Shown here one piece after another: positions 21,406-64,000 of a stretch of DNA of 64,000 bases. Position numbers and translations under genes: made by a program. The DNA comes from a virus: the IMG/VR virus record IMGVR_UViG_3300032242_002717, positions 23,402 to 87,401 of that record. One strand, 5' to 3'. The notes under the pieces were generated by a model. The model was not told the DNA's origin. It was given only the letters and a program-made list of their open reading frames with translations, and did not search any database. The stretch's first letter is position 1, and the number at the start of each line of letters is the position of its first letter.

Positions 21406-21425
21406 AAAATGAGAGGTTTTGAATC

Positions 21426-21575
21426 ATGGTATCAGACATTGAGGCGAGACTTAGATTCCTTGAGCAAAAGCTTGCCAGGATCGAGAATCTTCTTAAGAGC
21501 CTACAGTCTCAGCACGAGCAGGCTAACACCATGCTTCAAATGACAACTTCGGTCAATCAGAGCAGCGCATCATGA
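21426..21575 (+). CDS. 49-residue coiled-coil protein
   Basis: A short gene between the tail hub and fibre genes. ATG 21426 is preceded by GAGAGG, and its stop overlaps the next start (ATGA). The product begins DIEARLRFLEQKLARIENLL, a clear heptad repeat, then turns Gln/Ser-rich. The next protein begins with the same DIEARLRFLEQK, so the two may co-assemble or derive from each other. Confidence 0.65.
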   Translation: MVSDIEARLRFLEQKLARIENLLKSLQSQHEQANTMLQMTTSVNQSSAS

Positions 21576-34171: not shown

Positions 34172-34393
34172 ATGAAAATTGTCAAACCGGATCACACAAA
34201 TAATAGGGAACGAGTCAAAATAAGGATTTCAGAAGACGCATATCTTTTAGCCACAATAAGCGAAACCAGACACCTGGATAAATCTCAAATGTCTGGTTTT
34301 ATAATCTCTGGAAGATTTGCGATAGGCGAGATGGAATTGGTTTCGGCTCAAGAAGAACGTCGAGACACTTTGTCTCTGCGTTTGTTTTCGTAG
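34172..34393 (+). CDS. Small regulator-like protein, divergent from the repressor
   Basis: A 73-residue protein. The strand-helix pattern RVKIRISEDAYLLATISETR resembles ribbon-helix-helix DNA-binding proteins but is not conclusive. GAGGTGG lies upstream of the ATG. It ends 46 bases inside the convergent repressor gene. The place suggests a Cro-like or accessory regulator. Confidence 0.45.
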   Translation: MKIVKPDHTNNRERVKIRISEDAYLLATISETRHLDKSQMSGFIISGRFAIGEMELVSAQEERRDTLSLRLFS

Positions 34394-34809
34394 GGATCAA
34401 TCGGTCCAGGCTGGACTGCCAGACCGACCAGCCGTTTCATCGCAGTAGATAGTTCTGAGGGATCGTCGTCCGAGGAGGACACGGCGCGGGCCACCATCAA
34501 TAGACGCTCCTCGACTTCAGATAACTGAGGCTTCAGCTCTTCGCCTTTGGCTGGCGGCAACAGTCCAGGTCCGTTAATCAGCCAGTCGACGGTCGTGTTC
34601 ATCCCCGCCGCAAGCCTATCGACAACATTTAGACTGACCAGAAATTTTGGATTGGTTCCGACGATTGCAGATATTCGCTCTTTGCCAAGACCGCAGAGTT
34701 GAGCGAAATCGATTTGTTTAATTTTTTTCTGTTTGAGGTATTCTCGGCACACGTCCCTGATTCTGGACCTGTATGCGTCCATGTAAGGATCTTCTGACCG
34801 AAACGTCAT
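34348..34809 (-). CDS. XRE-family repressor, copy 2
   Basis: A 153-residue protein with an N-terminal HTH (IDFAQLCGLGKERISAIVGT) and the following NTTVDWLINGP end typical of CI-like repressors, here about residue 70. The C-terminal half is acidic and short, so no self-cleaving domain is present. It faces a small excisionase-like gene across an operator-like repeat. Confidence 0.75.
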   Translation of the reverse strand: MTFRSEDPYMDAYRSRIRDVCREYLKQKKIKQIDFAQLCGLGKERISAIVGTNPKFLVSLNVVDRLAAGMNTTVDWLINGPGLLPPAKGEELKPQLSEVEERLLMVARAVSSSDDDPSELSTAMKRLVGLAVQPGPIDPYENKRRDKVSRRSS

Positions 34810-41349: not shown

Positions 41350-41804
41350 TGGGCCGATCAAGAATATCAAGGAAAGAAGCGGATCGACTGATTGCTGGCC
41401 AAGATGTTCCTGCTCAGACCGTGTTTCCAACTGTCGCTGGAATGGACTCGCAGTCGGCACAATACTCTCTGATTTTATCAGCCAGAAAGAAAAGAGGTGA
41501 AATTCAAAGCTTTGAATACGAAACGCACTTGATCTTGCTTTCCTCGAAGTTCAATTGCCATTACAGGCCGGATTTCGTTGTCAGGCTTGCAAATGGAGAA
41601 ATTGAATATCACGAATGCAAATCAAGGCCAAACAGTCACGGCCTTGTCAAGACATTCTGGGCGGCGGAACTCTTCGACGGGCACACATGGGTCATTGCGA
41701 CACCCAAAAAAGGCAAAAAAAAGGGCCAGGTTTCCTTTCTGACCAAAAGGTTCCAGGCAAACCCATCGGGTAGAAAGCATGTTCAAAGAGGAGAGAACAA
41801 ATGA
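41349..41804 (+). CDS. DUF1064-like PD-(D/E)XK nuclease
   Basis: A 151-residue protein. The core FEYETHLILL and YRPDFVVRLANGEIEYHECK has the acidic-ExK spacing of PD-(D/E)XK nucleases, as in DUF1064 phage proteins. These probably cut branched DNA in recombination. The C-terminus is very basic. It overlaps both neighbours by a few bases. The substrate is inferred from the family. Confidence 0.65.
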   Translation: MGRSRISRKEADRLIAGQDVPAQTVFPTVAGMDSQSAQYSLILSARKKRGEIQSFEYETHLILLSSKFNCHYRPDFVVRLANGEIEYHECKSRPNSHGLVKTFWAAELFDGHTWVIATPKKGKKKGQVSFLTKRFQANPSGRKHVQRGENK

Positions 41805-42430
41805 GCCTGACCGGCGAAAGACGCGAAAACAAGAACTTGCAACTCATCAGAGATTTCCAGTCTGGAAATGAAGATGCTCTTGAGGAGTTCATCGAAATTA
41901 ACATGCCCGCAATACTTAGGCGAGTTAAGAACACCTCATGGTTTTACAATAGATCAAGCCATGACAAGCGGGAGATTGTCGAGGGTGCAAAAATCGGTTT
42001 ATGGAAAACCATGCGAGATTTTCGATTCGATGCCGGGGCCAAAGTTTCGACGTTTATGGTTTGGAAGATTCGTGGCGAGATTAGCCATGTCCGACCGGGT
42101 AGGACAATTGTAATCCCCGTCAAGTCCAAGACCAGCATAACCGAGGTCTCAATCGAATCCGCCAAGCACCTTGAGTTCCTGGCGATAGATCAGGACTACC
42201 AAGACATTGAGAGAAAAGAGGCAGTGTCTATGGTTCTTGCAAAACTTCGCTCCAAGGACAGGCACGTCTTGGCTCTTCGGTTTGGCCTTGATGGCAAAGG
42301 CGAGAGGACACTCCTACAGATTGCCAATCACTATGGTGTCAGTAAGGAGAGAGCCAGGCAGATTACAAAAAACGCGCTGTCTAATGCAAGAGATGCGATG
42401 GAACTGATTGGAGGTGTCGCATGCGTTTGA
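41801..42430 (+). CDS. Sigma-70 family sigma factor, copy 2
   Basis: A 209-residue sigma factor. Region 2 shows EIVEGAKIGLWKTMRDFRFD and KVSTFMVWKIRGEISH. Region 4 is typical (VLALRFGLDGKG, then LLQIANHYGVSKERARQITK). No region 1 or long region 3 is present. It differs clearly from the sigma at 26164 and is located in the early or replication operon, so it may serve a different time in the infection. Confidence 0.8.
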   Translation: MSLTGERRENKNLQLIRDFQSGNEDALEEFIEINMPAILRRVKNTSWFYNRSSHDKREIVEGAKIGLWKTMRDFRFDAGAKVSTFMVWKIRGEISHVRPGRTIVIPVKSKTSITEVSIESAKHLEFLAIDQDYQDIERKEAVSMVLAKLRSKDRHVLALRFGLDGKGERTLLQIANHYGVSKERARQITKNALSNARDAMELIGGVACV

Positions 42431-52222: not shown

Positions 52223-52245
52223 TTCAAAAAATTTTTTAGGGGGGG
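52223..52245. promoter_or_regulatory. A6/G-run element, copy 1 (diverged)
   Basis: TTCAAAAAA, a T-rich middle in place of TCGTTCA, then seven G. Upstream of the minus-strand gene at 52209. Confidence 0.55.
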
Positions 52246-52308
52246 CGTTTGGTTTTTAGGTTTAATGCTATTAGGCTGACGGAACGACCGGCAGCCAGCT
52301 AATGTTGA

Positions 52309-52998
52309 CTAACTGGCAGCACACTCGATTTCGCTGCCTTTCAGCTTCGCGCCAGCCTGGAAAACCTGAATCGGCCTTCCCGCATCTGTGACAATCTGAG
52401 TTCTGGGGGTTTCATCTTCTGGGTAAGCCGCCCATCCGAACGTGCGTTCGCTTTCACCATGGCCAAGTTCCGCCTCTTCCCAAGACCTGTATTCGGAGAC
52501 CCGGAACCCCACATGACCTTTGGCGTTCACTGTCCATTCGGCATGAACACACTCTCGGTCCACCCCAAGCGGAGAGATGCCTCCGCCTGGGGTCATGGTG
52601 GCAGTCTTGTCTAACCACATTTTTTTAACCATCGAATCATAGTCGAGATAATGACATGACCCCTTTGGTGCCACAAATCGGCATAGGTCTTTCGCCATGT
52701 CGATGCAGGTAAATGCGTGCTTCTGAGGAACTACTATGTATACTCCACCCTTCTCGTCAACGCAAATCCCATCGAAAGACTCGGCGGCTTCCCTAGCGAA
52801 TCGCCGGTAATTCTGCCTGTGCCTCCATGTTTGGTGTTCGTCCTCAGGAATCAGGGGAATCATGGCCATTTGACCGATTAACACGACCGATTGATTCTCT
52901 AGGACAACCTTCCAGATTGGCGTCTCGTCTCTTGCGAAGTCCCCAAAGATTGGGGACTTGCCAGACTTTGGAGTGTAGATAAAGAGCTTGGTGATCAC
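52309..52998 (-). CDS. Hypothetical protein behind element 2
   Basis: A 229-residue protein. GTG 52998 is preceded by AAAGGA with seven bases spacing; ATG 53070, next to the repeat element, is the alternative. It is alpha/beta with Trp-rich segments (AAESFDGICVDEKGGVYIVV). No family recognised. A hairpin separates it from the gene at 53169. Confidence 0.5.
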   Translation of the reverse strand: MITKLFIYTPKSGKSPIFGDFARDETPIWKVVLENQSVVLIGQMAMIPLIPEDEHQTWRHRQNYRRFAREAAESFDGICVDEKGGVYIVVPQKHAFTCIDMAKDLCRFVAPKGSCHYLDYDSMVKKMWLDKTATMTPGGGISPLGVDRECVHAEWTVNAKGHVGFRVSEYRSWEEAELGHGESERTFGWAAYPEDETPRTQIVTDAGRPIQVFQAGAKLKGSEIECAAS

Positions 52999-53074
52999 AG
53001 GAGTGTCCTTTGTGAAAACAGTTCTGATTGTGACGTAATAAGTTCGCAGGCAGTACCGCAGCAATGACATCGAT

Positions 53075-53098
53075 TTCAAAAAATCGTTCAGGGGGGGG
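53075..53098. promoter_or_regulatory. A6/G-run element, copy 2
   Basis: TTCAAAAAATCGTTCA followed by eight G. Upstream of the minus-strand gene ending at 52309. Confidence 0.65.
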
Positions 53099-53137
53099 CG
53101 GGATAGGAAGATAGTTATTTAGCCAAGGGGCATGCGA

Positions 53138-53157
53138 GGGGTTGCACTCGCAGCCCC
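53138..53157. terminator. GC-rich hairpin, copy 1 of a pair
   Basis: GGGGTTGC-ACTC-GCAGCCCC lies 12 bases after the stop of the gene at 53169. A near-identical hairpin is at 53543. Confidence 0.6.
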
Positions 53158-53168
53158 TATGGCAGCGA

Positions 53169-53516
53169 TCACAGACTTGGGGATGTAATGCGTCCCCGGT
53201 CGAAATCCTCGGGTGAACCCGACCGATAGTTGTACACGAAGGTCACACCATCTGGTGTGACGTAAATCTTGCGACCGTCACGGTCCTTTGCCCCGGTGGC
53301 GCGGCAATTAATCGTCAGCGTACCCTTAAACGCATTGCCGTTTCTTACCGTGTTATACGCAAACTCCGAGTGTGCGTAGAGGGGAACAATTCCCGGCACT
53401 TGTACTCGCACGGGGCCGCCTGAGTTCGTGCTAAAGGTTATTGCGGACATTCCTTCACCAGCGGCATTGATTTCGAGGATTTTGCGAGCCTCATCCTTCA
53501 GTTCTTCCAGAGTCAT
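53169..53516 (-). CDS. Small hypothetical protein
   Basis: A 115-residue protein from ATG 53516, with CAGGAG upstream. A helical N-terminus (TLEELKDEARKILEIN) precedes beta-rich sequence (GKDRDGRKIYVTPDGVTFV, approximately). G+C content is above that of the left arm. No family recognised. Confidence 0.5.
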   Translation of the reverse strand: MTLEELKDEARKILEINAAGEGMSAITFSTNSGGPVRVQVPGIVPLYAHSEFAYNTVRNGNAFKGTLTINCRATGAKDRDGRKIYVTPDGVTFVYNYRSGSPEDFDRGRITSPSL

Positions 53517-53542
53517 CGTCTTGCTCCTGCGTTCGGGGTTAT

Positions 53543-53562
53543 GGGGCTGCACTCGCAGCCCC
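53543..53562. terminator. GC-rich hairpin, copy 2 of a pair
   Basis: GGGGCTGC-ACTC-GCAGCCCC lies 15 bases after the stop of the gene at 53577 and differs from the 53138 copy by one base in the stem. Confidence 0.6.
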
Positions 53563-53576
53563 AAGAGGGTGGTCAA

Positions 53577-54308
53577 TTAGTCTGTTTGCTCACCATTGTC
53601 TTCCGGCTCTTGATCCAACAAATCTTTTTGGCAAGGCTCGCAATAGCAAGGGGAGTCAATGCTTACTCCGCACCCTTCGCACTCGCAATCTGATCCCGTC
53701 TCGGAGTCTTTTGACTCGTCAAGCTCGTCCAGAGCCGAGCTTGCGCGATCCATGTCTTCGCAACGAACAAAAAACATATGTAGCAAGAATTCTCCGTCAT
53801 AGTCCATTTCCTGGTACTCTCTGTATGGAACACCATGCGATTGCAAAATTTCCTGAATGCTCTCGATGTCATCATACTCGTGAGTGTCTCCAGCTTGACC
53901 GCAAGTATCGCTGGAGATTGCGGCGATGTTCTGCCACCCCGGCTTGGATTCGGGCCAAGGCATGTCGTCATCCTCGTCACGATGACAGAATTCCAGATCC
54001 ACCTTGCGTGCCAAGGCGTGAAGCTCCCGAGGCAGGGCTTTTCTTCGTAGACACCCGACATAGACTTTGTGGTCGTCGATGTCGAACAAGTCGATTGAGA
54101 GGTAGTCGCTGTCGCAATCGTCAACCTCCCAATCTCCGACGACAATGTCAGACTCCACGAATCCAAGAGATTTAAGGAGAGATTTAAGGATTAGTGTAGC
54201 TTGGTCGAGAGCGTCATTGTCGCTTTCGGCCTCAAATTCTTGGTCGCGGTCCAACGACATGTCTCTGGGTTTGATGGACGATGTGGCGGACAGGTGATAT
54301 TCACTCAT
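53577..54308 (-). CDS. Acidic protein with Cys-rich end, behind element 3
   Basis: A 243-residue acidic protein (many Asp and Glu) from ATG 54308, with GAAGGA upstream. The C-terminal 40 residues hold CECEGCG and CYCEPC, a probable zinc site. The main domain is alpha/beta. No family recognised. The repeat element lies 12 bases upstream. Confidence 0.5.
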   Translation of the reverse strand: MSEYHLSATSSIKPRDMSLDRDQEFEAESDNDALDQATLILKSLLKSLGFVESDIVVGDWEVDDCDSDYLSIDLFDIDDHKVYVGCLRRKALPRELHALARKVDLEFCHRDEDDDMPWPESKPGWQNIAAISSDTCGQAGDTHEYDDIESIQEILQSHGVPYREYQEMDYDGEFLLHMFFVRCEDMDRASSALDELDESKDSETGSDCECEGCGVSIDSPCYCEPCQKDLLDQEPEDNGEQTD

Positions 54309-54320
54309 GGCTGCGTTCCT

Positions 54321-54344
54321 TCTCAAAAAATCGTTCAGGGGGGG
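54321..54344. promoter_or_regulatory. A6/G-run element, copy 3
   Basis: TCTCAAAAAATCGTTCA followed by seven G. Twelve bases upstream of the ATG at 54308. Confidence 0.65.
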
Positions 54345-54382
54345 GACTGAGGTATTCTATCTCTACCTCGTGCGAGTGATGA

Positions 54383-54784
54383 TTAGTTGGTGGGCTTGAA
54401 AAGATCGGCTGCGTAAGCCGCAACCCAATCCGCTTCATAAGCCTTTCGCTCGTCAGGACTCATAGCCACGATTCTCTCACATTCCGCTCGGCTGGCTCGC
54501 AATTTAGCGGCCTGATCGTGCGTCAAGACGTAGTTGTTGACGTGACCAACGCCCAGATGCGAGTCGAGCAGATCGGACAGCACCCAACCCAGTCGATCTC
54601 GATCATCTTGAGTTATTCTTGCATCGCACTGACTGATCGCAGTCCAGTCTGACGCCGCGCCCACGCCACCTGGCCAGGTTTGGTCATCCGAGTACAAGGC
54701 GAATCCCGCCTGGCCATCGTGCGGCCCTTGAACCAAAATCTCGCCATTGACGGTCACAACATAGCCAACGTGAAAATATGACAT
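54383..54784 (-). CDS. Hypothetical protein
   Basis: A 133-residue protein; CTGGAG lies 8 bases upstream of ATG 54784. It has a beta-rich start (GYVVTVNGEILVQGPHDG) and a helical end (KLRASRAECERIVAMSPDER). No family recognised. A hairpin at 54813 lies just upstream. Confidence 0.5.
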   Translation of the reverse strand: MSYFHVGYVVTVNGEILVQGPHDGQAGFALYSDDQTWPGGVGAASDWTAISQCDARITQDDRDRLGWVLSDLLDSHLGVGHVNNYVLTHDQAAKLRASRAECERIVAMSPDERKAYEADWVAAYAADLFKPTN

Positions 54785-54812
54785 TTGAGCGACTCCAGCA
54801 ATTTGAGGTAAA

Positions 54813-54837
54813 GCGAGGCCAGAACGAGTGGCCTCGC
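54813..54837. terminator. Hairpin between two minus-strand genes
   Basis: GCGAGGCC (54813-54820) pairs with GGCCTCGC (54830-54837), loop of 9 bases, 16 bases after the stop of the gene at 54853. Confidence 0.55.
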
Positions 54838-54852
54838 GTGAAGCCAGGGGAA

Positions 54853-55266
54853 TCAGGATACTAACGTCAATTTGATATTGCGGTTCGCTGCCGGATCGAT
54901 TCGAAATAGGTGGCCGTCGATGTTGATCTGATCGCCCAAGTCGGCCTTGACTAGCAGTCCCTGGCGTTCGGACTCAAGCAGGCACGCCTGAGTGCCTGCG
55001 CCGTCAGATGCGAGGATAATTGGGTTTGGCGTCACCCAAGCCCATGGGCCTGGCACAAGCTCGCCACCGCATACCTTGCGGTGAGCAAATCCTGGCGGAA
55101 CGTATCCGAAAGAGAACCCGGAGATGCATCGTTCGCCAACCATCAGCACAACCTGCTTGACTGGATCTTGCACGTCCCAGTAGTTGCGAGCGATGTAGTT
55201 TCCATCCAGGTCAAAAGACTTGGTGATTGAGATCTTATCAAGGTCTATGTCGATTGGTGCGTTCAT
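54853..55266 (-). CDS. Hypothetical protein behind element 4
   Basis: A 137-residue protein from ATG 55266, with CAGGAG upstream. A longer open frame to 55845 would run through the repeat element and the recombinase gene, so it is not used. Gly/Pro-rich and beta-rich (ISGFSFGYVPPGFAHRKV). No family recognised. Confidence 0.5.
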   Translation of the reverse strand: MNAPIDIDLDKISITKSFDLDGNYIARNYWDVQDPVKQVVLMVGERCISGFSFGYVPPGFAHRKVCGGELVPGPWAWVTPNPIILASDGAGTQACLLESERQGLLVKADLGDQINIDGHLFRIDPAANRNIKLTLVS

Positions 55267-55286
55267 TACGAACTCCTGACGTGAGG

Positions 55287-55310
55287 TCTCAAAAAATCGT
55301 CCAGGGGGGG
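55287..55310. promoter_or_regulatory. A6/G-run element, copy 4
   Basis: TCTCAAAAAATCGTCCA followed by seven G. Twenty bases upstream of ATG 55266. Confidence 0.65.
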
Positions 55311-55331
55311 CGATGCATAATATTGGGTTAT

Positions 55332-55357
55332 AGATGGTCTCCACATGGAGACCATCT
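55332..55357. terminator. Hairpin after the serine recombinase
   Basis: AGATGGTCTCC (55332-55342) and GGAGACCATCT (55347-55357), loop ACAT, a perfect 11-bp stem 35 bases beyond the recombinase stop. Confidence 0.65.
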
Positions 55358-55391
55358 GATCGTGGGTTAGCAAGAGCTTCCTGTGGAGAAA

Positions 55392-56186
55392 TCAGACGGT
55401 CACTCGACCGCCGATGCCTTCCTCGCAAGCTCGGTCGTAGAGCTGCTTGACTCTGGCGGGTTTCATTGGCCCACCGTCTCGGCAAGAGACACCAAGGGTT
55501 TCTTGCAGGATCTCGGCAATCTCGCGGTAGGACGATCCCTCCGCACGCTTCTCTCGGATGACAAGCATCACGTCCCGGTTCTTGGCCAGAGCCTTGGCGG
55601 TGCGGGCCTTGGATGCCGCCTCGCGGCCCTCCAGCATCTCTTCCTGAGTAAACCTCTTCGATCCCGGACGAGACGCGCCAAGCCTGCGTCCCTTGCTCTT
55701 GGCGACACGCAGGGCATTTCTCGTGCGCTCGGAAATCAATTTTCCCTCGAACTCGGCACACAGGGCGAGCATATGCAAGCAAAACTCGCCAGACGGGCCA
55801 ACCGGGACTTCGGGGAAATCCAGGAAGAGAACATTGACGTTCCACTCACGGACCTGATCCCGGATCTCACGGAACAGGCCAGCGTTACGCGCCAATCGGT
55901 CGAGTTTGGCTACCACCACGGTAGCACCAGTTCGCCTGGCATAGCTCAACGCTTGGCGGAGTTGTTCGCGGTCTTGTTTGCCGGTCTCATAGTCCACAAA
56001 CTCGTCACGGATGATCTCGCCACCGTCGATTCGGCCAATGTACTCCTGAATCAGCCTCCGTTGTGCCTCAAGACCCAAGCCGGACCTGGCTTGGCGCAGG
56101 GTCGAGACGCGAACGTAGGGGACGTACCGCTTTGCTGGCGGAACGTGAGCAAAAGAAGATCGGGAAGGGGAGGTCAGTGCAGACAT
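55392..56186 (-). CDS. Serine recombinase (resolvase/invertase family)
   Basis: A 264-residue recombinase that would cut and rejoin DNA via a serine. The catalytic domain shows YVPYVRVSTLRQ with the active Ser, SGLGLEAQRR, and AKLDRLARN. The end has an HTH-like AEGSSYREIAEILQETLGVS. The length is that of a small resolvase or invertase, not a large serine integrase. The region is richer in G+C than its neighbours. It has its own promoter (56261) and a leader shared with the lipoprotein gene. Its sites are unknown. Confidence 0.85.
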   Translation of the reverse strand: MSALTSPSRSSFAHVPPAKRYVPYVRVSTLRQARSGLGLEAQRRLIQEYIGRIDGGEIIRDEFVDYETGKQDREQLRQALSYARRTGATVVVAKLDRLARNAGLFREIRDQVREWNVNVLFLDFPEVPVGPSGEFCLHMLALCAEFEGKLISERTRNALRVAKSKGRRLGASRPGSKRFTQEEMLEGREAASKARTAKALAKNRDVMLVIREKRAEGSSYREIAEILQETLGVSCRDGGPMKPARVKQLYDRACEEGIGGRVTV

Positions 56187-56248
56187 TTGAAAATCCTCTC
56201 GGTTTTGAAAAAGCTTAGTCTTGGTCAGAAGAACTTAGCCTTATTGGT

Positions 56249-56293
56249 TTCGACTTATATAATGTAACACAGTACATACCGAATGTCAATAGT
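56249..56293 (-). promoter_or_regulatory. Right-arm promoter, copy 1 (45 bp identical to 61437)
   Basis: On the minus strand: -35 TTGACA (56289-56284), 17-base spacer with CGGTATGTACTG, -10 TACATT (56266-56261). It faces the recombinase gene, whose ATG is 75 bases downstream. Confidence 0.75.
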
Positions 56294-56648
56294 CTATCTT
56301 GGGTTTTTTTGTGTGGTCCAGGGAACCAGCGATCATGCTATTGACAGCGTACCTGACCATTTCGCTAACCGACTTAAAATTAAGCGGCTGAAACGCTTCG
56401 TACCATGCTGTAAGCTCGGATTCGTCGATTTTCATATTGAACCTTGCCTTTGGAACAATATTGGCGGTCCTGGCTATTTTTTGCCGTTCCTGACCAGACT
56501 TGACCTGATTGACTTCGCTCGTAATCACGAGACGCTCGTATTCTGCTTTGGCTTTCCTTAATTCGACCTCATCTATTCTCTTGCCGAGTTCGATTTTAGT
56601 CAAAACATTAGGAACGAATGAGGGGCCTTGTTTTTTATGGCTTTTCAT
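56286..56648 (-). CDS. Small DNA-binding-like protein, behind element 5
   Basis: A 120-residue, very basic protein with charged helices and a final SVSEMVRYAVNSMIAG segment like the helix of ribbon-helix-helix regulators. AAGGAAG precedes ATG 56648. Its end overlaps the -35 region of the recombinase promoter, so it could influence it. Confidence 0.5.
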   Translation of the reverse strand: MKSHKKQGPSFVPNVLTKIELGKRIDEVELRKAKAEYERLVITSEVNQVKSGQERQKIARTANIVPKARFNMKIDESELTAWYEAFQPLNFKSVSEMVRYAVNSMIAGSLDHTKKPKIDY

Positions 56649-56717
56649 TGGAATCTTCCTTGCAAACAGGGTTGAGTAAGTACTATGAAGCATACCGATA
56701 AAGTCGCAAACAGTCAA

Positions 56718-56741
56718 TTCAAAAAATCGTCTAGGGGGGGG
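56718..56741. promoter_or_regulatory. A6/G-run element, copy 5
   Basis: TTCAAAAAATCGTCTA followed by eight G. About 70 bases upstream of ATG 56648. Confidence 0.65.
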
Positions 56742-56762
56742 TCTTACAATAAAAATTGATGG

Positions 56763-57056
56763 TTACAGTCCAAGCGATTCCCGGAGACTTCTCTGCTCTC
56801 GCCACTGGGTTGCAAGCTTGCTCCTGGATTCTTCAAGCGCGGTGAGACATACGATCAAAGCATTGTGAACGGCAAGAATTTCCGAAGTCGGTTGCTTCGT
56901 ACGCATTTTGCTTACGTTCACTGTCATCAGGTATATCTTGACGCACATATCATCGACCTGACCTTCTTGATACTCTATCTCTGTCAACAACTTGTATGGA
57001 ATCAGGCTTGAACCGCTTGCTTTTTTTGCCGCAATCATCATCTTTTCTGTGATCAT
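56763..57056 (-). CDS. Small hypothetical protein, behind element 6
   Basis: A 97-residue helical protein (NALIVCLTALEESRSKLATQ) with AAGGGA upstream of ATG 57056. No family recognised. Confidence 0.45.
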   Translation of the reverse strand: MITEKMMIAAKKASGSSLIPYKLLTEIEYQEGQVDDMCVKIYLMTVNVSKMRTKQPTSEILAVHNALIVCLTALEESRSKLATQWREQRSLRESLGL

Positions 57057-57093
57057 TTGATCGTCCCTTGCAGATCTGGTAAGTGTGGGTCAA

Positions 57094-57114
57094 TTCAAAA
57101 AATCGTTTCGGGGG
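57094..57114. promoter_or_regulatory. A6/G-run element, copy 6
   Basis: TTCAAAAAATCGTTTC followed by five G. It directly abuts the stop codon of the gene at 57118. Confidence 0.6.
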
Positions 57115-57117
57115 AGG

Positions 57118-57381
57118 TCATTGGTTGATCGTGGCTATGTATATTTCTGAAAGCGAGATGTGACCTTGCTTCCAAAGTGCTTCGATATGCTTGCACGGAT
57201 CTGACTTGAGTTCTTCCCTGCGAAACGCGAAGTCTTCACAGTCGCATATCCAACCACAGAACTGAGAATCATCCTTGTCGATTCGGTGAGACCTTGAAGA
57301 GTAAGACAAGACATATCTTCCAGATATAAAATCAAGTCGATATAGCTTGCCCTTGATTTTCATAGTGACTGGATATTTCAT
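57118..57381 (-). CDS. Small SWIM-type zinc finger protein
   Basis: An 87-residue protein with the CxCx(n)CxH pattern of SWIM fingers (WICDCEDFAFR and DPCKHIEAL). SWIM domains bind DNA or protein in recombination-related proteins. It starts in an ATGA overlap with the upstream gene. A stand-alone SWIM protein is uncommon. Confidence 0.65.
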   Translation of the reverse strand: MKYPVTMKIKGKLYRLDFISGRYVLSYSSRSHRIDKDDSQFCGWICDCEDFAFRREELKSDPCKHIEALWKQGHISLSEIYIATINQ

Positions 57382-57638
57382 TTCTCAATCCAAGAACTTG
57401 GGATACAGTTCGAATCATAGTCTTTTGGAAGCAAACTCTTTACCTGCTCAAGAGCGCAGCCGAAATCGACTCCGGTTGCCATCATTGCCGAAACTGCTCC
57501 TACTATGATTCCCTTGCCGTACGCAGTGTTAATTTCCCAGTCTTCTTGTTTTGTGTTCTTGGTTGACAATGAATACAGGGCATCTTTCAAGATTATCGGC
57601 CTGGATATCTTGCTTTTTTTGACAGGGGATTTCTTCAT
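57378..57638 (-). CDS. Small hypothetical protein, behind element 7
   Basis: An 86-residue protein, basic at the N-terminus and then helical with a Gly/Ala-rich hydrophobic stretch (GIIVGAVSAMMATGVDFG). AGAGGA precedes ATG 57638. It could be membrane-associated. No family recognised. Confidence 0.45.
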   Translation of the reverse strand: MKKSPVKKSKISRPIILKDALYSLSTKNTKQEDWEINTAYGKGIIVGAVSAMMATGVDFGCALEQVKSLLPKDYDSNCIPSSWIEK

Positions 57639-57686
57639 GGTTTCCTCTTTGTCAATGAAATGGATTTCAGCGAACCGCAACAAGAC

Positions 57687-57707
57687 TCAAAAAATCGTTC
57701 AGGGGGG
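57687..57707. promoter_or_regulatory. A6/G-run element, copy 7
   Basis: TCAAAAAATCGTTCA followed by six G. 48 bases upstream of ATG 57638. Confidence 0.65.
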
Positions 57708-57739
57708 ATAGATAGTTCAGTTCGACTTGATTCAACCGA

Positions 57740-58363
57740 TCAATCGGCAAACCTGTCTAGGCTTTCCGAGATCGAACCAATTCGCATGAGTGCGATTCGG
57801 CAAGATTCTTTGCAAGCCTTGACCAAGGCCCTATCGGACGCGCTTTCAGGAAATCCTGATGACGACGATCTTCTCAAGTCACAGAAACAAATCGGAGGCA
57901 GATAGCCAAGAAGCATGTAGGAGAGGCAGATTTCATGGCTACAATCCATCCCTACGCAAGTAAGGGCTAAAGCGTAGGTCTGATCTTTCAGGACCACCAG
58001 AGTGCAATTTGGAAGCTCTAGGACTCTCTTGCCTTTCGGGTCAAAATCACTGGGCAGCGGATAGAGGCAGTTTACGATAGGTTCAATCGAGTCCATATTT
58101 TCTTGGATTGTGTCTACGCAAACATTCCTTGCCGACTCAAGGTATTCATCGTCGTCAATGTCGATGAGGCAGTCTACCCTGCCGTCAAGAGAGACTCCAT
58201 ATTCTTGCAAGAACTCTTTCATTTCCTCGATGGAGTAGTCGGCAAAATCGGGAATAACGATATCCCAAGATTCTCCATACCCTTTCGAGAAGTCAAAACC
58301 AATCGGGTTGAAATAGATTGTATCGGCGCACAGTTGGTCGATCTTGCGAACGTCAATCGGCAT
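57740..58363 (-). CDS. Hypothetical protein, behind element 8
   Basis: A 207-residue acidic protein from ATG 58363, with AGAGGA upstream. It is alpha/beta (SWDIVIPDFADYSIEEMKEF), with several cysteines in its second half (CVGMDCSHEIC and CFC). No family recognised. Confidence 0.5.
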   Translation of the reverse strand: MPIDVRKIDQLCADTIYFNPIGFDFSKGYGESWDIVIPDFADYSIEEMKEFLQEYGVSLDGRVDCLIDIDDDEYLESARNVCVDTIQENMDSIEPIVNCLYPLPSDFDPKGKRVLELPNCTLVVLKDQTYALALTCVGMDCSHEICLSYMLLGYLPPICFCDLRRSSSSGFPESASDRALVKACKESCRIALMRIGSISESLDRFAD

Positions 58364-58384
58364 CTTTGTATCCTCTTGTTTGCT

Positions 58385-58407
58385 TCTCAAAAAATCGTTC
58401 AGGGGGG
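58385..58407. promoter_or_regulatory. A6/G-run element, copy 8
   Basis: TCTCAAAAAATCGTTCA followed by six G. 21 bases upstream of ATG 58363. Confidence 0.65.
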
Positions 58408-58439
58408 ATAATCGGCAGTTTTTGCCACAGGATAAAAGC

Positions 58440-58700
58440 TCAAACTAAATCGCTACCTTTGAGGTAGAGTTTTTGCTTATTGACTATGACGTAGTGGCTT
58501 GCCGCATTGCTAAAACATACCGCATACACTCGATAGGCGACATTTCTTCCGGGGAGCCTTACCATTCTATCGGTAGCGATTTTGCTACCGTATCCGCTGG
58601 CAGACTGCCCCGGCAAGAGTTGAAGCATACCGAATCTTTTGACTGGGCTTGAGATCACCTCGAATGGTTGCTCAAGGTATTTGATTTCAGACAATTTCAT
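58440..58700 (-). CDS. Small hypothetical protein
   Basis: An 86-residue basic beta-rich protein (GRNVAYRVYAVCFSNAASHY). AAGGGAG precedes ATG 58700, which overlaps the upstream stop (ATGA). No family recognised. Confidence 0.45.
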   Translation of the reverse strand: MKLSEIKYLEQPFEVISSPVKRFGMLQLLPGQSASGYGSKIATDRMVRLPGRNVAYRVYAVCFSNAASHYVIVNKQKLYLKGSDLV

Positions 58701-59161
58701 GCTCCCTTGTTGATGACGAACTTCGGGTCCATTAAGTGGCATACTGTATCCACGTTAAGCGGGTTGACTCCGGTTCTGGGGAATTTCCTATCGACTCCAA
58801 AGTACCGGCATTTCCAGGGTTGCTCCCTACGGAAACCAGTAGATTCGTCGCCGTGTACACGCAGATTGTCGCAATCAGAGGGCACTCCATTGTTTCCGGT
58901 GAAATCGCAAGTCGGGTTATCGGAATCGATATCGTAGTCGCCTAAGTCTGACTCTGGAATATGGATGAAGTGACCGTATTCGGAGTCGCTAAATTCGTCG
59001 ATTGCATCGGACGGAGAACCGGCTTCAACCGCATAGAAGTTGGACTCGAAACCCATTGAAATCTCAATCAGCCAAGTCTTACCATGCCAACCAGAAGGAT
59101 TGACGACATCGGCTTCAATTGGCTTTCCGTAGAACTCGCCTCTTGCAATGACCTTGCTCAT
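58697..59161 (-). CDS. Hypothetical protein, behind element 9
   Basis: A 154-residue Asp-rich protein (GDYDIDSDNPTCDFTGNNGV), possibly metal-binding. GAGG precedes ATG 59161 and overlaps the repeat element. No family recognised. Confidence 0.5.
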   Translation of the reverse strand: MSKVIARGEFYGKPIEADVVNPSGWHGKTWLIEISMGFESNFYAVEAGSPSDAIDEFSDSEYGHFIHIPESDLGDYDIDSDNPTCDFTGNNGVPSDCDNLRVHGDESTGFRREQPWKCRYFGVDRKFPRTGVNPLNVDTVCHLMDPKFVINKGA

Positions 59162-59167
59162 TTTTGC

Positions 59168-59191
59168 CTCAAAAAAACTTTCAGGGGAGGG
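59168..59191. promoter_or_regulatory. A6/G-run element, copy 9 (diverged)
   Basis: CTCAAAAAAACTTTCA followed by four G, then AGGG. It lies 6 bases upstream of ATG 59161. Confidence 0.5.
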
Positions 59192-59228
59192 TGGAAGGAT
59201 TTCTTCGAAACATTCAATGTCCGCGCCA

Positions 59229-60056
59229 TCAGAATGGTATAAGACCTTGCGCGTCGAGTTCTTCGTGAATCAACTCTGCAATGGTGTAAGGGTGATCGGA
59301 ACAAAGTTTTGATATCTCGACTAGCGAATGTTCAGATAGGTCTTGAAACCCGACAATACCTAAGCTTGAAGGGGACTGGTATTCAACTTCAGAGTCGATA
59401 TCTACATCCTCTACTTCGTCATAATACTTGTCACGATACCTTGCCCAGCTGCCACTGGTGAAAGATCGGTATTCGGTCAAGCTTGAGGATTTCTTTGGAC
59501 TCACTACCGGCTTGCTAGGCAAGCAAGAAGTGTTAGATAGCCACAATTCTTCGTGATTGACTCCAAGCGACTTGTTTGCCGTCAAGATCTTGCCGTCCGA
59601 AGCGCGGACGATTACTACCTTGCTATGGCCAATCATCGATTCTAGGTACTCTTCCAGCGTTCCATCGTCAAACCATTCTGGATGCATGGCAAGCATCGGC
59701 TCTACGATACCCACGGCAAGGTGATAGGTATCGCTCTTGCCCTTCCAGCGAACCGGCATAGAGTCAATAATCCCGTTATGGATAACGCAATACTCGCCAT
59801 CCATGATAACGAACGGATGACAATTCTCGATGCTTGTTTCGCCGTGAGTTGTGATTCTCGCATGAAATACCCAAGCGTCACTACCGGCCTTCTTGACCGC
59901 GCCTAGAGCCTTCTTATTGTCCATGCTCTTTTCTACGCGAAGCCCGTTCTTGCCGAGTACCACAAGTCCCCAACCGTGAGGATTACGCGCTACCGCTTCA
60001 GAGATCATATTGTCAGAGTAGGAAGCTTTCGCGGGCCTATTTACGATAACACACAT
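59229..60056 (-). CDS. Class-II glutamine amidotransferase-like (Ntn hydrolase) protein
   Basis: A 275-residue protein. ATG 60056 puts a Cys at position 2, the nucleophile after Met removal (MCVIVNRP). The family blocks follow: NPHGWGL, WVFHARITTHG, ENCHPF and CVIHNGII near residue 92, then KSDTYHL. These fit the amidotransferase fold that splits glutamine. No synthase domain is attached, so the ammonia acceptor or true substrate is unknown. GAGA lies 7 bases upstream. Confidence 0.7.
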   Translation of the reverse strand: MCVIVNRPAKASYSDNMISEAVARNPHGWGLVVLGKNGLRVEKSMDNKKALGAVKKAGSDAWVFHARITTHGETSIENCHPFVIMDGEYCVIHNGIIDSMPVRWKGKSDTYHLAVGIVEPMLAMHPEWFDDGTLEEYLESMIGHSKVVIVRASDGKILTANKSLGVNHEELWLSNTSCLPSKPVVSPKKSSSLTEYRSFTSGSWARYRDKYYDEVEDVDIDSEVEYQSPSSLGIVGFQDLSEHSLVEISKLCSDHPYTIAELIHEELDAQGLIPF

Positions 60057-60083
60057 TGGCAATCTCGATTCTTTGGTGAGTAT

Positions 60084-60111
60084 CGCTGGCAATGCAAAAT
60101 GGTTGCCAGCG
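60084..60111. terminator. Hairpin between two minus-strand genes
   Basis: CGCTGGCAA (60084-60092) pairs with TTGCCAGCG (60103-60111), loop of 10 bases. It lacks a U-run. Confidence 0.5.
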
Positions 60112-60152
60112 TAATTGAAAGCAAAAGTCTAACAGAACCGCAATCCTAGAAA

Positions 60153-60488
60153 TCAACCGCCCGGCATGGATATGTCTTCATAGCACGATACTTTCCCACC
60201 CTCAAAAACATCTACAAAGATAGACGGCATGCAAGAGACACCGTAAATGTAAAGTTGAAATGGGAATTGAGACTCTCCGTTCTTGTTGGCAATCATCTCG
60301 CGTACTTGTTGCTTTCCGGTAGTACACACATGGCCACGATATCCTATTTCAATGGTGGTGAAGCTAAGGTCAAAAACATCCTCGATAGTGGCGAATCGAC
60401 TCAAGAACCGACATTGTTCGACCGTACCAAAAACATCGTGGCGAAACTCAGAAACCGTAGAGCTAATGTCACGAATTTTCTCGACCAT
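60153..60488 (-). CDS. Hypothetical protein
   Basis: A 111-residue protein from ATG 60488, with AGAGG upstream and a promoter about 60 bases above. Alpha/beta (FATIEDVFDLSFTTIEIGYR). No family recognised. Confidence 0.5.
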   Translation of the reverse strand: MVEKIRDISSTVSEFRHDVFGTVEQCRFLSRFATIEDVFDLSFTTIEIGYRGHVCTTGKQQVREMIANKNGESQFPFQLYIYGVSCMPSIFVDVFEGGKVSCYEDISMPGG

Positions 60489-60546
60489 TGAACTTGCCTC
60501 TTGTCTAGTGTGAAAAGAAAAGAACCGAACTAATCTCGACTTAGAT

Positions 60547-60575
60547 ACTGTACCATAATACATACCGTAAGTCAA
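60547..60575 (-). promoter_or_regulatory. Right-arm promoter, copy 3
   Basis: On the minus strand: TTGACT (60575-60570), 17-base spacer with CGGTATGTATTA, TACAGT (60552-60547). It faces the gene at 60488. Confidence 0.7.
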
Positions 60576-60591
60576 GATATTTCTTTGTTTT

Positions 60592-60969
60592 TTAGCAACC
60601 GTGAATCATTCCATCGTCGCCGATATAGAGATTAAATTCGCCGAACTTCTTACTTTCAATCGTTAACTCTTTGCCAACCATGGTTGGCCAATCGCCATCC
60701 CAGAATCCCGCGCCGTGTCCGTTCCTTGTTAGCCAGAAATCGTGTCCGATCATTCCTTCAACTGAACCCTCGAAGCGGAATGGATCTACCGATTCAATCA
60801 CGATCTTGTTTTTATCAAGAAAAGACTTGCAATCTCTTGTCATATTTTCGAGCGTGCCTTTGTGAATCGACTCTTTGGTGTATTTTTCGTCAAGAGGATT
60901 GCCGTAATCATCGGTTGATGACCAAAGCGCGGTTCGAACGTAAGACTCAAAAACAGATTCTAAATTCAT
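60592..60969 (-). CDS. Conserved-looking phage hypothetical protein
   Basis: A 125-residue protein with GHDFWLTRNGHGAGFWDGDW and FNLYIGDDGMIHGC. I recall this pattern from many phage genomes without known function. GGAGATA precedes the ATG. Confidence 0.6.
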   Translation of the reverse strand: MNLESVFESYVRTALWSSTDDYGNPLDEKYTKESIHKGTLENMTRDCKSFLDKNKIVIESVDPFRFEGSVEGMIGHDFWLTRNGHGAGFWDGDWPTMVGKELTIESKKFGEFNLYIGDDGMIHGC

Positions 60970-61017
60970 GGCTATCTCCGATTCTTGAAACTAAAGGTGA
61001 ATGGCTATCGGGCTAGA

Positions 61018-61404
61018 TTATTTAATCTGGCCCGGCAACCCGGAAATGATTCTTTCGAGATTGATTGCTTGTTCGTGATCGGAAGGGTATCCAAAAGAAA
61101 CAAGATCGAACTCAGATTCGATTTTGTTGTACTGTCTGCTTTCCCAAGTACTGAACATACCTGCCTTGATATCGGCCTTGAGAAGCTCTACGTCACCATT
61201 GTAAAGCTCTTGAAGAAGGCCCATATCCCGTATCGCCGAAACGAACAAGATCGGAACCATTACCACTTGGCCATGAAGCCTCATATGATCCAATTCGTCT
61301 TCAGTAAGGGTATCAAGATAGGGGGTCAAAGCACGGTAAATTTCTCGCTTGGGATGCTCGCTATCCCCACGGTAAAGAAAAGTCGAGCATGGAACATGAA
61401 TCAT
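61018..61404 (-). CDS. Hypothetical protein
   Basis: A 128-residue protein. ATG 61404 has GGAGA 5 bases upstream; ATG 61416 is an alternative. Helical with a hydrophobic stretch (GQVVMVPILFVSAIRDMG). First gene after promoter copy 2. Confidence 0.5.
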   Translation of the reverse strand: MIHVPCSTFLYRGDSEHPKREIYRALTPYLDTLTEDELDHMRLHGQVVMVPILFVSAIRDMGLLQELYNGDVELLKADIKAGMFSTWESRQYNKIESEFDLVSFGYPSDHEQAINLERIISGLPGQIK

Positions 61405-61436
61405 TGGAATCTCCATTGTTTGGGCCGGTTGCTTCG

Positions 61437-61481
61437 TTCGACTTATATAATGTAACACAGTACATACCGAATGTCAATAGT
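61437..61481 (-). promoter_or_regulatory. Right-arm promoter, copy 2 (45 bp identical to 56249)
   Basis: TTGACA (61477-61472), 17-base spacer, TACATT (61454-61449) on the minus strand. It faces the genes at 61404 and 60969. Confidence 0.75.
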
Positions 61482-61494
61482 TTTTTGACTGTTT

Positions 61495-61803
61495 TTATTC
61501 GATTTCCTTTCCGGTTTCCGGGTCCACTTCATAAAAGTCTTTAATCCACTCCATGGCGGACTCAATATCCTCAAAATGACACCAATCGGTTGCATCAAGA
61601 TATCCAGGTGCGCTCATGCGTGCAATGATTCCGGCATGAACCTTTATTTCCTGATCTTCGTCAGGCTTTCCGCACACAAATTGACGAAGATCTTCGAGGG
61701 TAGCTTCTGGCCCTACGCAATCGACGGGAACCACTTCCGTTCCGTCAGAAGTCTCTACTAGGTAGCAACCCTTGTCACAATATTCTGGAATCATGAATGG
61801 CAT
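61495..61803 (-). CDS. Small acidic hypothetical protein
   Basis: A 102-residue acidic protein (FEDIESAMEWIKDFYEVDPE) with AAGGGGAT upstream of ATG 61803. No family recognised. Confidence 0.5.
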   Translation of the reverse strand: MPFMIPEYCDKGCYLVETSDGTEVVPVDCVGPEATLEDLRQFVCGKPDEDQEIKVHAGIIARMSAPGYLDATDWCHFEDIESAMEWIKDFYEVDPETGKEIE

Positions 61804-61861
61804 TTAAGGAAATCCCCTTGAAAATGGGCAGCAAAGTAAGTCGGTTGGAAATGAACTAGGT

Positions 61862-62125
61862 TCAGTCTTGATAGAACACTTCATAAGAATCATCACGATA
61901 GTCCAAACTATCGTGGTAGACCGCATAGAACTGTTTGGGCTTGTATAGCTTGACGAACTCACTCCAAGCCATAACTCCCGACTTGCGCTTCTGGCTAACA
62001 TAAGTCTTTTTTGCGGACTCTTTGAATTCTTTGAGTTTTGGCCAGAACTCAATTTGTCTTCCGAATGGAAGGGTATTCCAATTGCTTGGAATACCGTCGA
62101 TCTTAATTCTTGTCTTGCTCTTCAT
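61862..62125 (-). CDS. Small hypothetical protein
   Basis: An 87-residue basic protein (WPKLKEFKESAKKTYVSQKR) with AAGGGGAA upstream of ATG 62125. No family recognised. Confidence 0.5.
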   Translation of the reverse strand: MKSKTRIKIDGIPSNWNTLPFGRQIEFWPKLKEFKESAKKTYVSQKRKSGVMAWSEFVKLYKPKQFYAVYHDSLDYRDDSYEVFYQD

Positions 62126-62136
62126 CGGATTTCCCC

Positions 62137-62544
62137 TTAGTTGTGATCGTCTTGATCTTTGGTCAAGGACTCAATTTTCGGATAATAATTTCCGTTTGAT
62201 GAATAGTAATCAACCCAGAACTGAGTGACTTCATTAGGATTGTCGGTATGCTGTTCGGCAATCCATTCTTCGCCGTACTCCGTGAGGCCGTTCATTAGAA
62301 ACGAACCGATCTTTCGACCGCTTGGAAGCGTTTCCGCCTCAAGGCAATACTCGTGGTTGCCACAATGGCAAGGCGAGTCAGATTCCCCACAATCAATCAT
62401 GAACTTCGGGAAATCTTCGGAATCGTAAGTCGATTGGTCGTACTGATTTTCAGGTACCATACGGGGTTCTTTTTTGCAGATATCGGCGATGATCGCTTCA
62501 CCACACTTGTTGCAATAGAGATCGGCTTGATAGATATAGGGCAT
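62137..62544 (-). CDS. Small protein with Cys/His-rich centre
   Basis: A 135-residue protein from ATG 62544, with GAGA upstream. Starts upstream of the promoter are excluded. YCNKCGE at residue 9 and SPCHCGNHEYC near 55 suggest a zinc site. No family recognised. Confidence 0.55.
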   Translation of the reverse strand: MPYIYQADLYCNKCGEAIIADICKKEPRMVPENQYDQSTYDSEDFPKFMIDCGESDSPCHCGNHEYCLEAETLPSGRKIGSFLMNGLTEYGEEWIAEQHTDNPNEVTQFWVDYYSSNGNYYPKIESLTKDQDDHN

Positions 62545-62593
62545 GAAAATCTCAGGGTTATTGTTTGGTTGCCGCATCGCTGCCACAGGATAT

Positions 62594-62622
62594 AATGTAT
62601 CACGGTACTTACCGATAGTCAA
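62594..62622 (-). promoter_or_regulatory. Right-arm promoter, copy 4
   Basis: TTGACT (62622-62617), 17-base spacer with the perfect dyad CGGTA-AG-TACCG, TACATT (62599-62594) on the minus strand. It is divergent from the terminase promoter. Confidence 0.7.
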
Positions 62623-62640
62623 TAACTTATTGAAAAGATT

Positions 62641-62683
62641 TTGGCAACAAGATCGGGTTTCGGTATGATTAGTATGTACTAAA
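62641..62683 (+). promoter_or_regulatory. Promoter and operator of the terminase small subunit
   Basis: TTGGCA (62641-62646) and TATGAT (62664-62669) with 17-base spacing. At the start point lies TTAGTA-TG-TACTAA (62669-62682), a perfect-arm dyad related to the GTATGTAC motif of the minus promoters. Confidence 0.7.
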
Positions 62684-62708
62684 CATCTATTTTTGAGGAA
62701 TACAAGCA

Positions 62709-63395
62709 ATGTCCGCGCCGAAAAAAATCGGTCTGACCAATACCGCGAAAAACATTCTAAGGTCACTTCCAGAGAAGGAAGTTGACTTTGTTCTTTGCTA
62801 CGCTTGCAACCCCGGCCCTTCCGGCGCAATCAAGGCAGCTGCCGAGATATCGCCAGAGGGCTTGACTAAGAGCGAATTGCGTCAAGTGGCGGCGGAAATG
62901 CTATCCAACCCGGAAGTCAAGAAGGCGATAGATAAGCTTGCCAAGTGTTTCACGACCAATCCAGGAGAAGTGCTATCGGCAATTTCCGATCAAGCTTTCC
63001 CTGATCTTGAAGCGGTTCAAGCTTGCTATATTGACCACGGAAACGGCCTGAGAACTTGGGACTGGAAGAAGGCTTTCGAGAATGGTGCAGCTGCATTCGT
63101 GAGAAAAGTGACACCCACAAAAAATGGTGATGCAGTAGAATTCCATGATCGCATACGCGCGCTGGAAACGCTTGGGAAATACCACGGATTATGGGATGAT
63201 AAACCGAACGTACAGGTCAATAATTTTGACTTGTCTAAACTTAGTGAGGACCAATTAAGGGCAATGGCAGCTGGAAAGCCTGTAAGCGACTCTTCAGCTG
63301 CCACTGAACAACAAACGATTGATGTTAGCTACCGTACTTTGTGGGAACCTGAAATCAATCATGATCCATCAGAATCTTCTTCAGATTCAGAATGA
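62709..63395 (+). CDS. Terminase small subunit
   Basis: A 228-residue protein likely to recognise the packaging site and work with the large terminase. The first half is helical with the pattern FVLCYACNPGPSGAIKAAAE, then AAEMLSNPEVKKAIDKL. A later HDRIRALETLGKYHGLWDD is typical of terminase small subunits. A Ser/Glu-rich tail closes it. The large subunit is not in the window and is probably just beyond the right edge. Confidence 0.78.
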   Translation: MSAPKKIGLTNTAKNILRSLPEKEVDFVLCYACNPGPSGAIKAAAEISPEGLTKSELRQVAAEMLSNPEVKKAIDKLAKCFTTNPGEVLSAISDQAFPDLEAVQACYIDHGNGLRTWDWKKAFENGAAAFVRKVTPTKNGDAVEFHDRIRALETLGKYHGLWDDKPNVQVNNFDLSKLSEDQLRAMAAGKPVSDSSAATEQQTIDVSYRTLWEPEINHDPSESSSDSE

Positions 63396-63705
63396 TAGGC
63401 TTCAAAATTGAGGCGGGAACCGCGCCTGAATCTCTCATTCCCTCAATGAAATCTTTAGCTTCGGACTCTGAGTTAAAGTGATATGCCTTCTTTGTTTCCC
63501 CACTCTTGACCCAAAAAACTAGGGTATTGTCAAGCTTGCGAAACATCACGCAAAAGTGTGGCGTTTCGGGAATTTCATAATCGTTGATTACTGGACTTCT
63601 TTTGAACGATTGCCCCATAAATCGATAGTCCGGCAAGTCCGTTTGCTCAAGAATCACAACCGGCAAGCCAGAATCGGAAATCTTCTCAATCACGGTATCC
63701 TCCAT
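63355..63705 (-). CDS. Hypothetical protein, behind element 10
   Basis: A 116-residue alpha/beta protein (TLVFWVKSGETKKAYHFNSE) convergent with the terminase gene, overlapping it by 41 bases. No strong ribosome binding site. No family recognised. Confidence 0.5.
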   Translation of the reverse strand: MEDTVIEKISDSGLPVVILEQTDLPDYRFMGQSFKRSPVINDYEIPETPHFCVMFRKLDNTLVFWVKSGETKKAYHFNSESEAKDFIEGMRDSGAVPASILKPIILNLKKILMDHD

Positions 63706-63768
63706 TCCAAAACTATGTTTTTCCTAATTTGATTATAGCAAGTAAATCTCCATGAAGTTGTTGAATAC

Positions 63769-63792
63769 TTCTCAAAAAATCTTTGGGGGGGG
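63769..63792. promoter_or_regulatory. A6/G-run element, copy 10
   Basis: TTCTCAAAAAATCTTT followed by eight G. 64 bases upstream of the ATG at 63705, far from the main array. Confidence 0.6.
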
Positions 63793-63918
63793 TGTTACCC
63801 ATATCTAGCTTAACACTGGCGAAACCGCCACGGTTTGCAATTTGCCTATCTTGAAAAAATCGAAAAAGCGAAAAAAGTGTACTTTTGAACAGTAAAAAGT
63901 GTATGTCTGTTCACCAGA
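63793..63918. other. Non-coding stretch before the tandem repeat
   Basis: No gene seen. It is A-rich, contains AAAAAAGTGTAC, and has a GAACAG...CTGTTC inverted repeat (63887-63892 and 63907-63912) that could be an operator. Confidence 0.45.
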
Positions 63919-64000
63919 GGACCGGACGTCCGGAGGACCGTCTAGGACCGGACGTCCGGAGGACCGTCTAGGACCGGACGTCCGGAGGACCGTCTAGGAC
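63919..64000. repeat. 26-bp GC-rich tandem repeat at the right edge
   Basis: Three exact 26-base units (63919, 63945, 63971) and the start of a fourth. Each has the 12-bp palindrome CCGGACGTCCGG. The array continues outside the window. It is much richer in G+C than the surroundings. A packaging site or replication origin is possible, given the terminase gene nearby. Confidence 0.85.

Follow-up and report, generated by a model that had tools for sequence, protein, structure and literature searches.

What marks the gene boundaries in an accessory gene cluster that is read from one strand only? This question is raised by the last 64 kb of the IMG/VR virus record IMGVR_UViG_3300032242_002717 (87,401 bp), a stretch of 64,000 nucleotides that we refer to as the window. 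Most genes of one minus-strand accessory cluster in the window are preceded by a one-way element of about 20 bp which, read with the genes, has the form CCCC-N6-GATTTTTTG with a gap fixed at 6 bp. The distribution of the element points to an undescribed control of whole gene clusters. We favor, with a probability of about one in three, a reading in which the copies would be orientation-dependent protein-binding sites that control initiation and elongation of transcription and work like the stoperators of phage L5.

The window contains ten copies, all on the same strand and restricted to this one cluster (Table 1), with the consensus CCCC(C...)-gap-GATTTTTTG[AG][AG] in the reading direction of the cluster. 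A repeat finder independently recovered the ten copies as the largest family. An earlier, sequence-only reading of the window had listed ten copies at places that were borne out to within a few bases. Its plus-strand G-run of varying length proved to consist of C's that extend both into the fixed 6-bp gap and upstream. Copies were scored over 14 fixed positions with a threshold of 13 or better. Over the whole 87.4-kb record, eight copies passed on the strand of the cluster and none on the other, and reversed and complemented control sequences gave none. The gap is CTGAAC in four copies and CTGGAC, CTAGAC, and CGAAAC in one copy each, while the copies at 52224 (gap CTAAAA, AATTTTTT), 59169 (GTTTTTTT, TCCC), and 63772 (gap CCCAAA) are divergent. 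Plus-strand G-runs of at least seven occur in the record inside elements only, with one C7 run elsewhere (record 3439). The sequence-only reading had placed every copy after the stop of a minus-strand gene and before the start of the next one on that strand. This holds for nine out of ten copies, located 3–81 bp past the stop and 7–80 bp ahead of the start (with gene starts as assigned by a simple script), and the tenth (63772) precedes the gene adjoining the repeat-filled contig end.

Table 1. Copies of the repeated element and promoter-like sequences near them, in window coordinates.
Position	Strand	Feature	Remark
52224..52245	-	element copy, CCCCCCC-TAAAA-AATTTTTTGAA	divergent
53076..53098	-	element copy, C8-TGAAC-GATTTTTTGAA	
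54323..54345	-	element copy, C8-TGAAC-GATTTTTTGAG	
55289..55310	-	element copy, C7-TGGAC-GATTTTTTGAG	stable hairpin ~25 nt upstream
56689..56717	-	sigma70-like promoter TTGACT-17-TATGCT	adjoins the 56719 copy on its downstream side
56719..56741	-	element copy, C8-TAGAC-GATTTTTTGAA	
57095..57117	-	element copy, CCTCCCCC-GAAAC-GATTTTTTGAA	few bp past the upstream stop
57687..57707	-	element copy, C6-TGAAC-GATTTTTTGAG	
58387..58407	-	element copy, C6-TGAAC-GATTTTTTGAG	
59169..59191	-	element copy, CCCTCCCC-TGAAA-GTTTTTTTGAGG	degenerate
63732..63737	-	TATAAT hexamer (weak -35)	candidate promoter for gene 63355-63693, on the downstream side of the 63772 copy; found by eye, outside the promoter-scan list
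63772..63792	-	element copy, C8-AAA-GATTTTTTGAG	cluster head

Several familiar signals do not account for the element. As the sequence-only reading had held, the copies are not ordinary terminators: no stem-loop stands directly before the T-tract, the segment ending there is no more structured than its shuffles (mean z +0.17), and no terminator-like match in a scan of the window ends at an element's T-tract. The companion claim that no copy forms a hairpin is correct for the core itself; several copies do, however, have a stable hairpin immediately upstream, and the 60 nt upstream of the element are somewhat structured (mean z -0.95). A hairpin whose 3' arm would lie in the gap gained no support from the structure test, and pairing of the C-run with the following G's or with the Shine-Dalgarno sequence was rejected for lack of conservation of the partner G's (this phage has GAG/GAA). 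A remnant of hairpin terminators was likewise rejected, as true terminators there have ordinary long stems. The element is not a variant of the ribosome-binding site (RBS) or Shine-Dalgarno sequence either, since separate RBSs coexist with it. A conserved sigma70 promoter fails for lack of fixed -35/-10 columns in the flanks. The sequence-only reading could fit no standard -35/-10, which stands for the family as a whole but not for the copy at 56719, the only one to abut an own-strand match. A Sigma32-like -10 (CCCCATNT) was discarded, having no -35.

Other viruses share the element class: at least six carry it, and most of these are unrelated to this phage. One relative, an IMG/VR phage of 84.8 kb with an 84% identical major capsid protein, has 12 copies in its counterpart of the cluster, next to the small terminase gene, all on the same strand. 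Its copies keep the T-tract and the C-run but have a different gap, and three of them stand at the cluster head with a spacing of 33–34 bp. Scanning viral contigs for CCCC-N6-GATTTTTT-RGGAG yielded nine contigs, most of which carry multiple copies on a single strand of one cluster. A second phage group comprises at least five contigs, mostly of 43–51 kb, with 4–12 copies each on one strand of one cluster (G002, 11; G005, 4; G006, 5; G008, 12; G009, 6). The capsid protein of G008, the one record typed in detail, is of the HK97 type, and its DNA polymerase belongs to family A. A search with the head type of the element (see below) added two contigs with one or two copies. All relatives are metagenome-derived contigs, several of them fragments, so that their copy counts are lower bounds and the absence of a gene is no proof. 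The exact 19-base core of this phage's own type had no match in the viral contigs and two matches in 84,980 species genomes, which is about chance level, while the loose pattern C6-N3..6-GATTTTTTGA hit 42 contigs, mostly as single chance matches. Among the cultured phages of INPHARED we found no nucleotide match to the cluster, no capsid protein match and no notable element match. The sequence-only reading had named absence from related phages and random occurrence on both strands as observations that would speak against it; the element is found at the equivalent place in the relative and also in unrelated phages, and is not scattered over both strands.

Comparison of 38 copies from five phages (G002, G005, G006, G008, G009) revealed that CCCC and GATTTTTTGG are nearly invariant, with six variable bases in between; upstream of CCCC the only preference is an A or T two bases before it. 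Gaps agree at 2.82 of six bases within a phage versus 1.62 between phages (0/1000 shuffles). Across phages, head copies agree at 2.59 bases versus 1.56 for head-body pairs (0/500 shuffles). The gap is phage-specific in the cluster bodies and similar at the cluster heads of unrelated phages, where the commonest form is CCCCCC-RTRG-GATTTTTTGG. At five cluster heads, one copy precedes a sigma70-like promoter and a second copy follows or overlaps its start, at a spacing of 95 (G002, G005, G009), 98 (G008) or 105 bp (G006). The promoters were recognized by eye, with TTGACA-17-TAACTT in G002 and TTGACA-17-TACACT in G009. Downstream of the head pair the second phage group has an element-gene-element-gene order, and its body copies lie between the stop and start of successive genes, some overlapping the upstream stop. 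The ATG is mostly found 12–14 nt past the T-tract in this group, versus 7–80 nt in the phage of the window. In the latter and its relative, the RBS is mostly apart from the element, which lies up to 80–100 bp ahead of the start codon. Several second-group genes have both the element, then lacking GGGAG, and a separate TTTCTG-purine RBS. One copy in G002 follows the last gene and directly precedes a terminator, and some copies (G002 7402, G009 7529) are immediately followed by a terminator-like hairpin.

Our reading starts from what the sequences display, namely an oriented array with a fixed bipartite core, intergenic sites, bracketing of head promoters in the relatives, a phage-specific gap and unrelated carriers. 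A sequence-specific regulator would read the oriented repeats, bind the DNA there and block transcription, and so control the accessory or early operon as a whole. Copies beside the head promoter would act as operators and intergenic copies as roadblocks to the elongating RNA polymerase, by which the operon would be silenced or shut off at many points simultaneously. The regulator, we infer, is either host-encoded or the product of an unrecognized phage gene. The RNA of a promoter does not include a copy located ahead of that promoter, which favors a role at the DNA level, and two window copies (56719, 63772) have a promoter-like sequence immediately downstream. Where a gap has no room for a promoter, its copy suggests an effect on the passing polymerase. 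Every copy is oriented with the cluster genes in all phages seen, and a single orientation suggests a directional effect. The likeness of gaps within a phage and of heads across phages is what recognition by a specific protein would lead one to expect. Promoter-associated copies, small gaps and a single orientation match the L5 set, and we therefore think that the elements work like stoperators. We do not class them as stoperators, because they occupy one operon only and no L5-type repressor turned up. The suggestion of the sequence-only reading that the copies jointly control the gene set is still the best one and is partly supported.

Several points weigh against this interpretation. No common regulator gene was found across the carriers, and the sites are limited to one operon, unlike those of L5. 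The second phage group shows neither an integrase nor an HTH_3 repressor above the cut-off, which makes a lysogeny repressor unlikely there; if the stoperator-like reading is right, the factor in this group would rather be a host protein or an early shut-off protein. The proximity of most second-group body copies to the ATG, where they merge into the Shine-Dalgarno sequence GGGAG, also fits a role in RNA. In addition, the 95–105 bp pairing may simply be the size of a promoter module, and upstream transcription could place the first head copy in RNA.

Such an RNA-level role and an unusual promoter are the chief competitors of our reading. The former, in which a leader or start element marks the 5' region of each cistron, is bound by protein or RNA or is cleaved, and sets translation or stability, would resemble that of the start-associated sequences (SAS) of mycobacteriophages. 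In each gene module the element stands after the stop and before the RBS, which agrees with this role, as do the unstructured, C- and U-rich RNA and the merging with GGGAG at 12–14 nt from most ATGs in the second group. We nonetheless find it doubtful, given that the head copies lie upstream of the promoter, the distance to the start ranges over 7–100 nt in this phage and its relative, the core is kept where a separate RBS is present, and the last G002 copy precedes a terminator only. An unusual promoter, with a CCCC-N6 core, a start at GA and GAUUUUUUG leaders, could be read by an alternative host sigma factor or an altered host polymerase. The orientation and position of the element suit internal promoters, the CCCC lies 6 bp ahead of a purine that could serve as +1, and intergenic repeats of halovirus HF2 carry promoters (PMC8707807). 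Sigma-70-like proteins are encoded by this phage and its relative only, the second group having no match. This absence, together with the lack of a conserved -35 (and of conserved sequence generally ahead of the CCCC), a -10 that would be C-rich, and the terminator-like hairpins immediately after the G002 and G009 copies mentioned above, makes a promoter unlikely. The restriction of the element to one operon makes a T7-type promoter in particular unlikely. No T7-type RNA polymerase (PF00940) was matched in 11 records, though the family also matched no control genome, and the two-barrel RNA polymerase motif DFDGD was not found.

A factor-dependent terminator or pause, at which RNA would end in the T6 tract with the help of a protein and insulate each gene module, draws on the T6 tract with its C-run, the hairpin-rich DNA upstream and the position after stops. 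It also has a parallel in Thermus phage P23-45, in which a conserved 26-nt motif is common to seven termination sites close to the left end of the genome (PMC10770324). We consider it improbable: the shuffle comparison given above speaks against it, the early gaps of P23-45, as read here, contain ordinary stem-loops, and ordinary terminators close the G002, G005, and G006 clusters. Moreover, compact arrays with 0–9 bp between stop and element leave little promoter room and would be silenced by unconditional termination. Finally, the element could be a cassette boundary, that is, a recombination site or shared homology for swapping accessory genes. There is one element per gene module, gene content differs strongly between relatives, one gene family occupies different array places in three phages, and serine recombinase genes lie in the clusters of both large phages. 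However, where close relatives differ in their genes, the differences do not run from element to element (in G006/G012 one break lies after the Shine-Dalgarno sequence and the opposite side lacks an element, and the G005/G007 break lies inside a gene), and the second group shows no such recombinase. A cassette boundary is thus very improbable.

The phage of the window encodes an SU10-type major capsid protein, a tyrosine integrase (with weak, mixed matches in plasmids) and a large terminase with an intein (Hint-type domains; record 19989-23066, just left of the window), and its repeat cluster includes a serine recombinase gene. Up to four sigma-70-like proteins are encoded, all on the plus strand (window 26164-26865 and 41801-42430; record 9241-10002 and ~13257-13466), and two regions of the relative match such proteins as well. 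Tandem GGACCGGACGTCCGG-type repeats occur at both contig ends (window 63913-64000, record 1-60). Since the GGACCGGACGTCC-type repeat is common to both ends, the genome may be circular or terminally repeated and broken in the repeat. A promoter-operator-like unit, TTGAC[AT]..CGGTATGTACTGTGTTACATTAT, is present in four minus-strand copies (56259-56281, 60545-60567, 61447-61469, 62592-62614) before single accessory genes, the serine recombinase gene included; the window has no fifth copy, hence none at the integrase/repressor region. The 20-nt stem-loop GGGGYTGCACTCGCAGCCCC occurs twice between cluster genes (53138-53157, 53543-53562) without a T-tract. An accessory protein family with the motif HDFWLTRNGHGAGFWDG is encoded at window 60592-60969 (minus strand) and in arrays of unrelated phages (L027:6928-7338, L065:9038-9424). 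Rfam and tRNA scans gave no matches.

Another motif, followed by purines, stands out in six whole contigs read with their array on the plus strand: TTTCTGGG (G008, G009) or TTTCTGAG (G002, G005, G006, G011). It occurs genome-wide, far over Markov expectation and almost only on the array strand, mostly antisense within genes of the other strand, and similar sequences make up the RBS region of the genes in the array. It may be Chi-like or regulatory.

One motif class across unrelated capsids suggests that the phages either converged on a host factor or carry a transferable control module. It is possible, and we put it forward tentatively, that the CCCC-N6-GATTTTTTG arrays, with a head type CCCCCC-RTRG-GATTTTTTGG bracketing the promoter, belong to an undescribed transcription-control system, with a host-encoded or transferable factor, that unrelated temperate and apparently lytic phages have adopted for control of their early or accessory operons. 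The element is a simple DNA search key for the early and accessory operons of uncultured phages, where host-takeover and anti-defense genes tend to lie. Its arrays also offer new systems to test the role of start-associated repeats, which was still open in a 2025 survey (PMC12699233).

Among known systems, halovirus HF2 has intergenic repeats with a position kept between related viruses, but these are AT-rich repeats of 29/58 bp with proven promoter activity in an archaeal virus. Phage P23-45 shares an intergenic motif repeated in the early cluster beside the small terminase gene, C-rich and then with a T-tract; its gaps hold ordinary stem-loops and are AT-rich at the start codon, whereas the C-run of our element has no paired G-arm. 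The closest multi-copy one-way control sites that we found are those of a few mycobacteriophage groups. The SAS of cluster K, with a function given as unknown (PMC3203893), had been proposed as the nearest idea by the sequence-only reading. They are likewise asymmetric, in one orientation and placed before many non-structural genes, and the second-group repeat similarly merges into the Shine-Dalgarno sequence close to the ATG. The comparison is fair in position but not in sequence: SAS is a 13-bp GGGATAGGAGCCC located 3–7 bp from the ATG, its consensus had no match in the window with up to two mismatches, and the core described here lies upstream of and is separable from the Shine-Dalgarno sequence, and also occurs upstream of promoters. 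Cluster A stoperators (L5, TipsytheTRex) differ in being 13 bp long and, in L5, in being spread over several transcription units genome-wide instead of a single cluster; some carriers of our element look non-temperate, unlike the phages with these stoperators, and neither of the two HTH_3 proteins encoded near the integrase of the window's phage, at window 33520-34044 and 34348-34809, matched an L5-type repressor among solved structures. Nevertheless, both are short asymmetric sites, present many times per genome in one orientation to transcription, in short intergenic gaps and in promoter-associated copies (the promoters here being assigned by sequence). The L5 operator/stoperator sites are asymmetric and lose their function when reversed (PMC9283540), and the L5-type consensus drifts between phages (PMC6550527), as does that of our element. 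The L5 stoperator therefore appears to be at least as close an analog as SAS.

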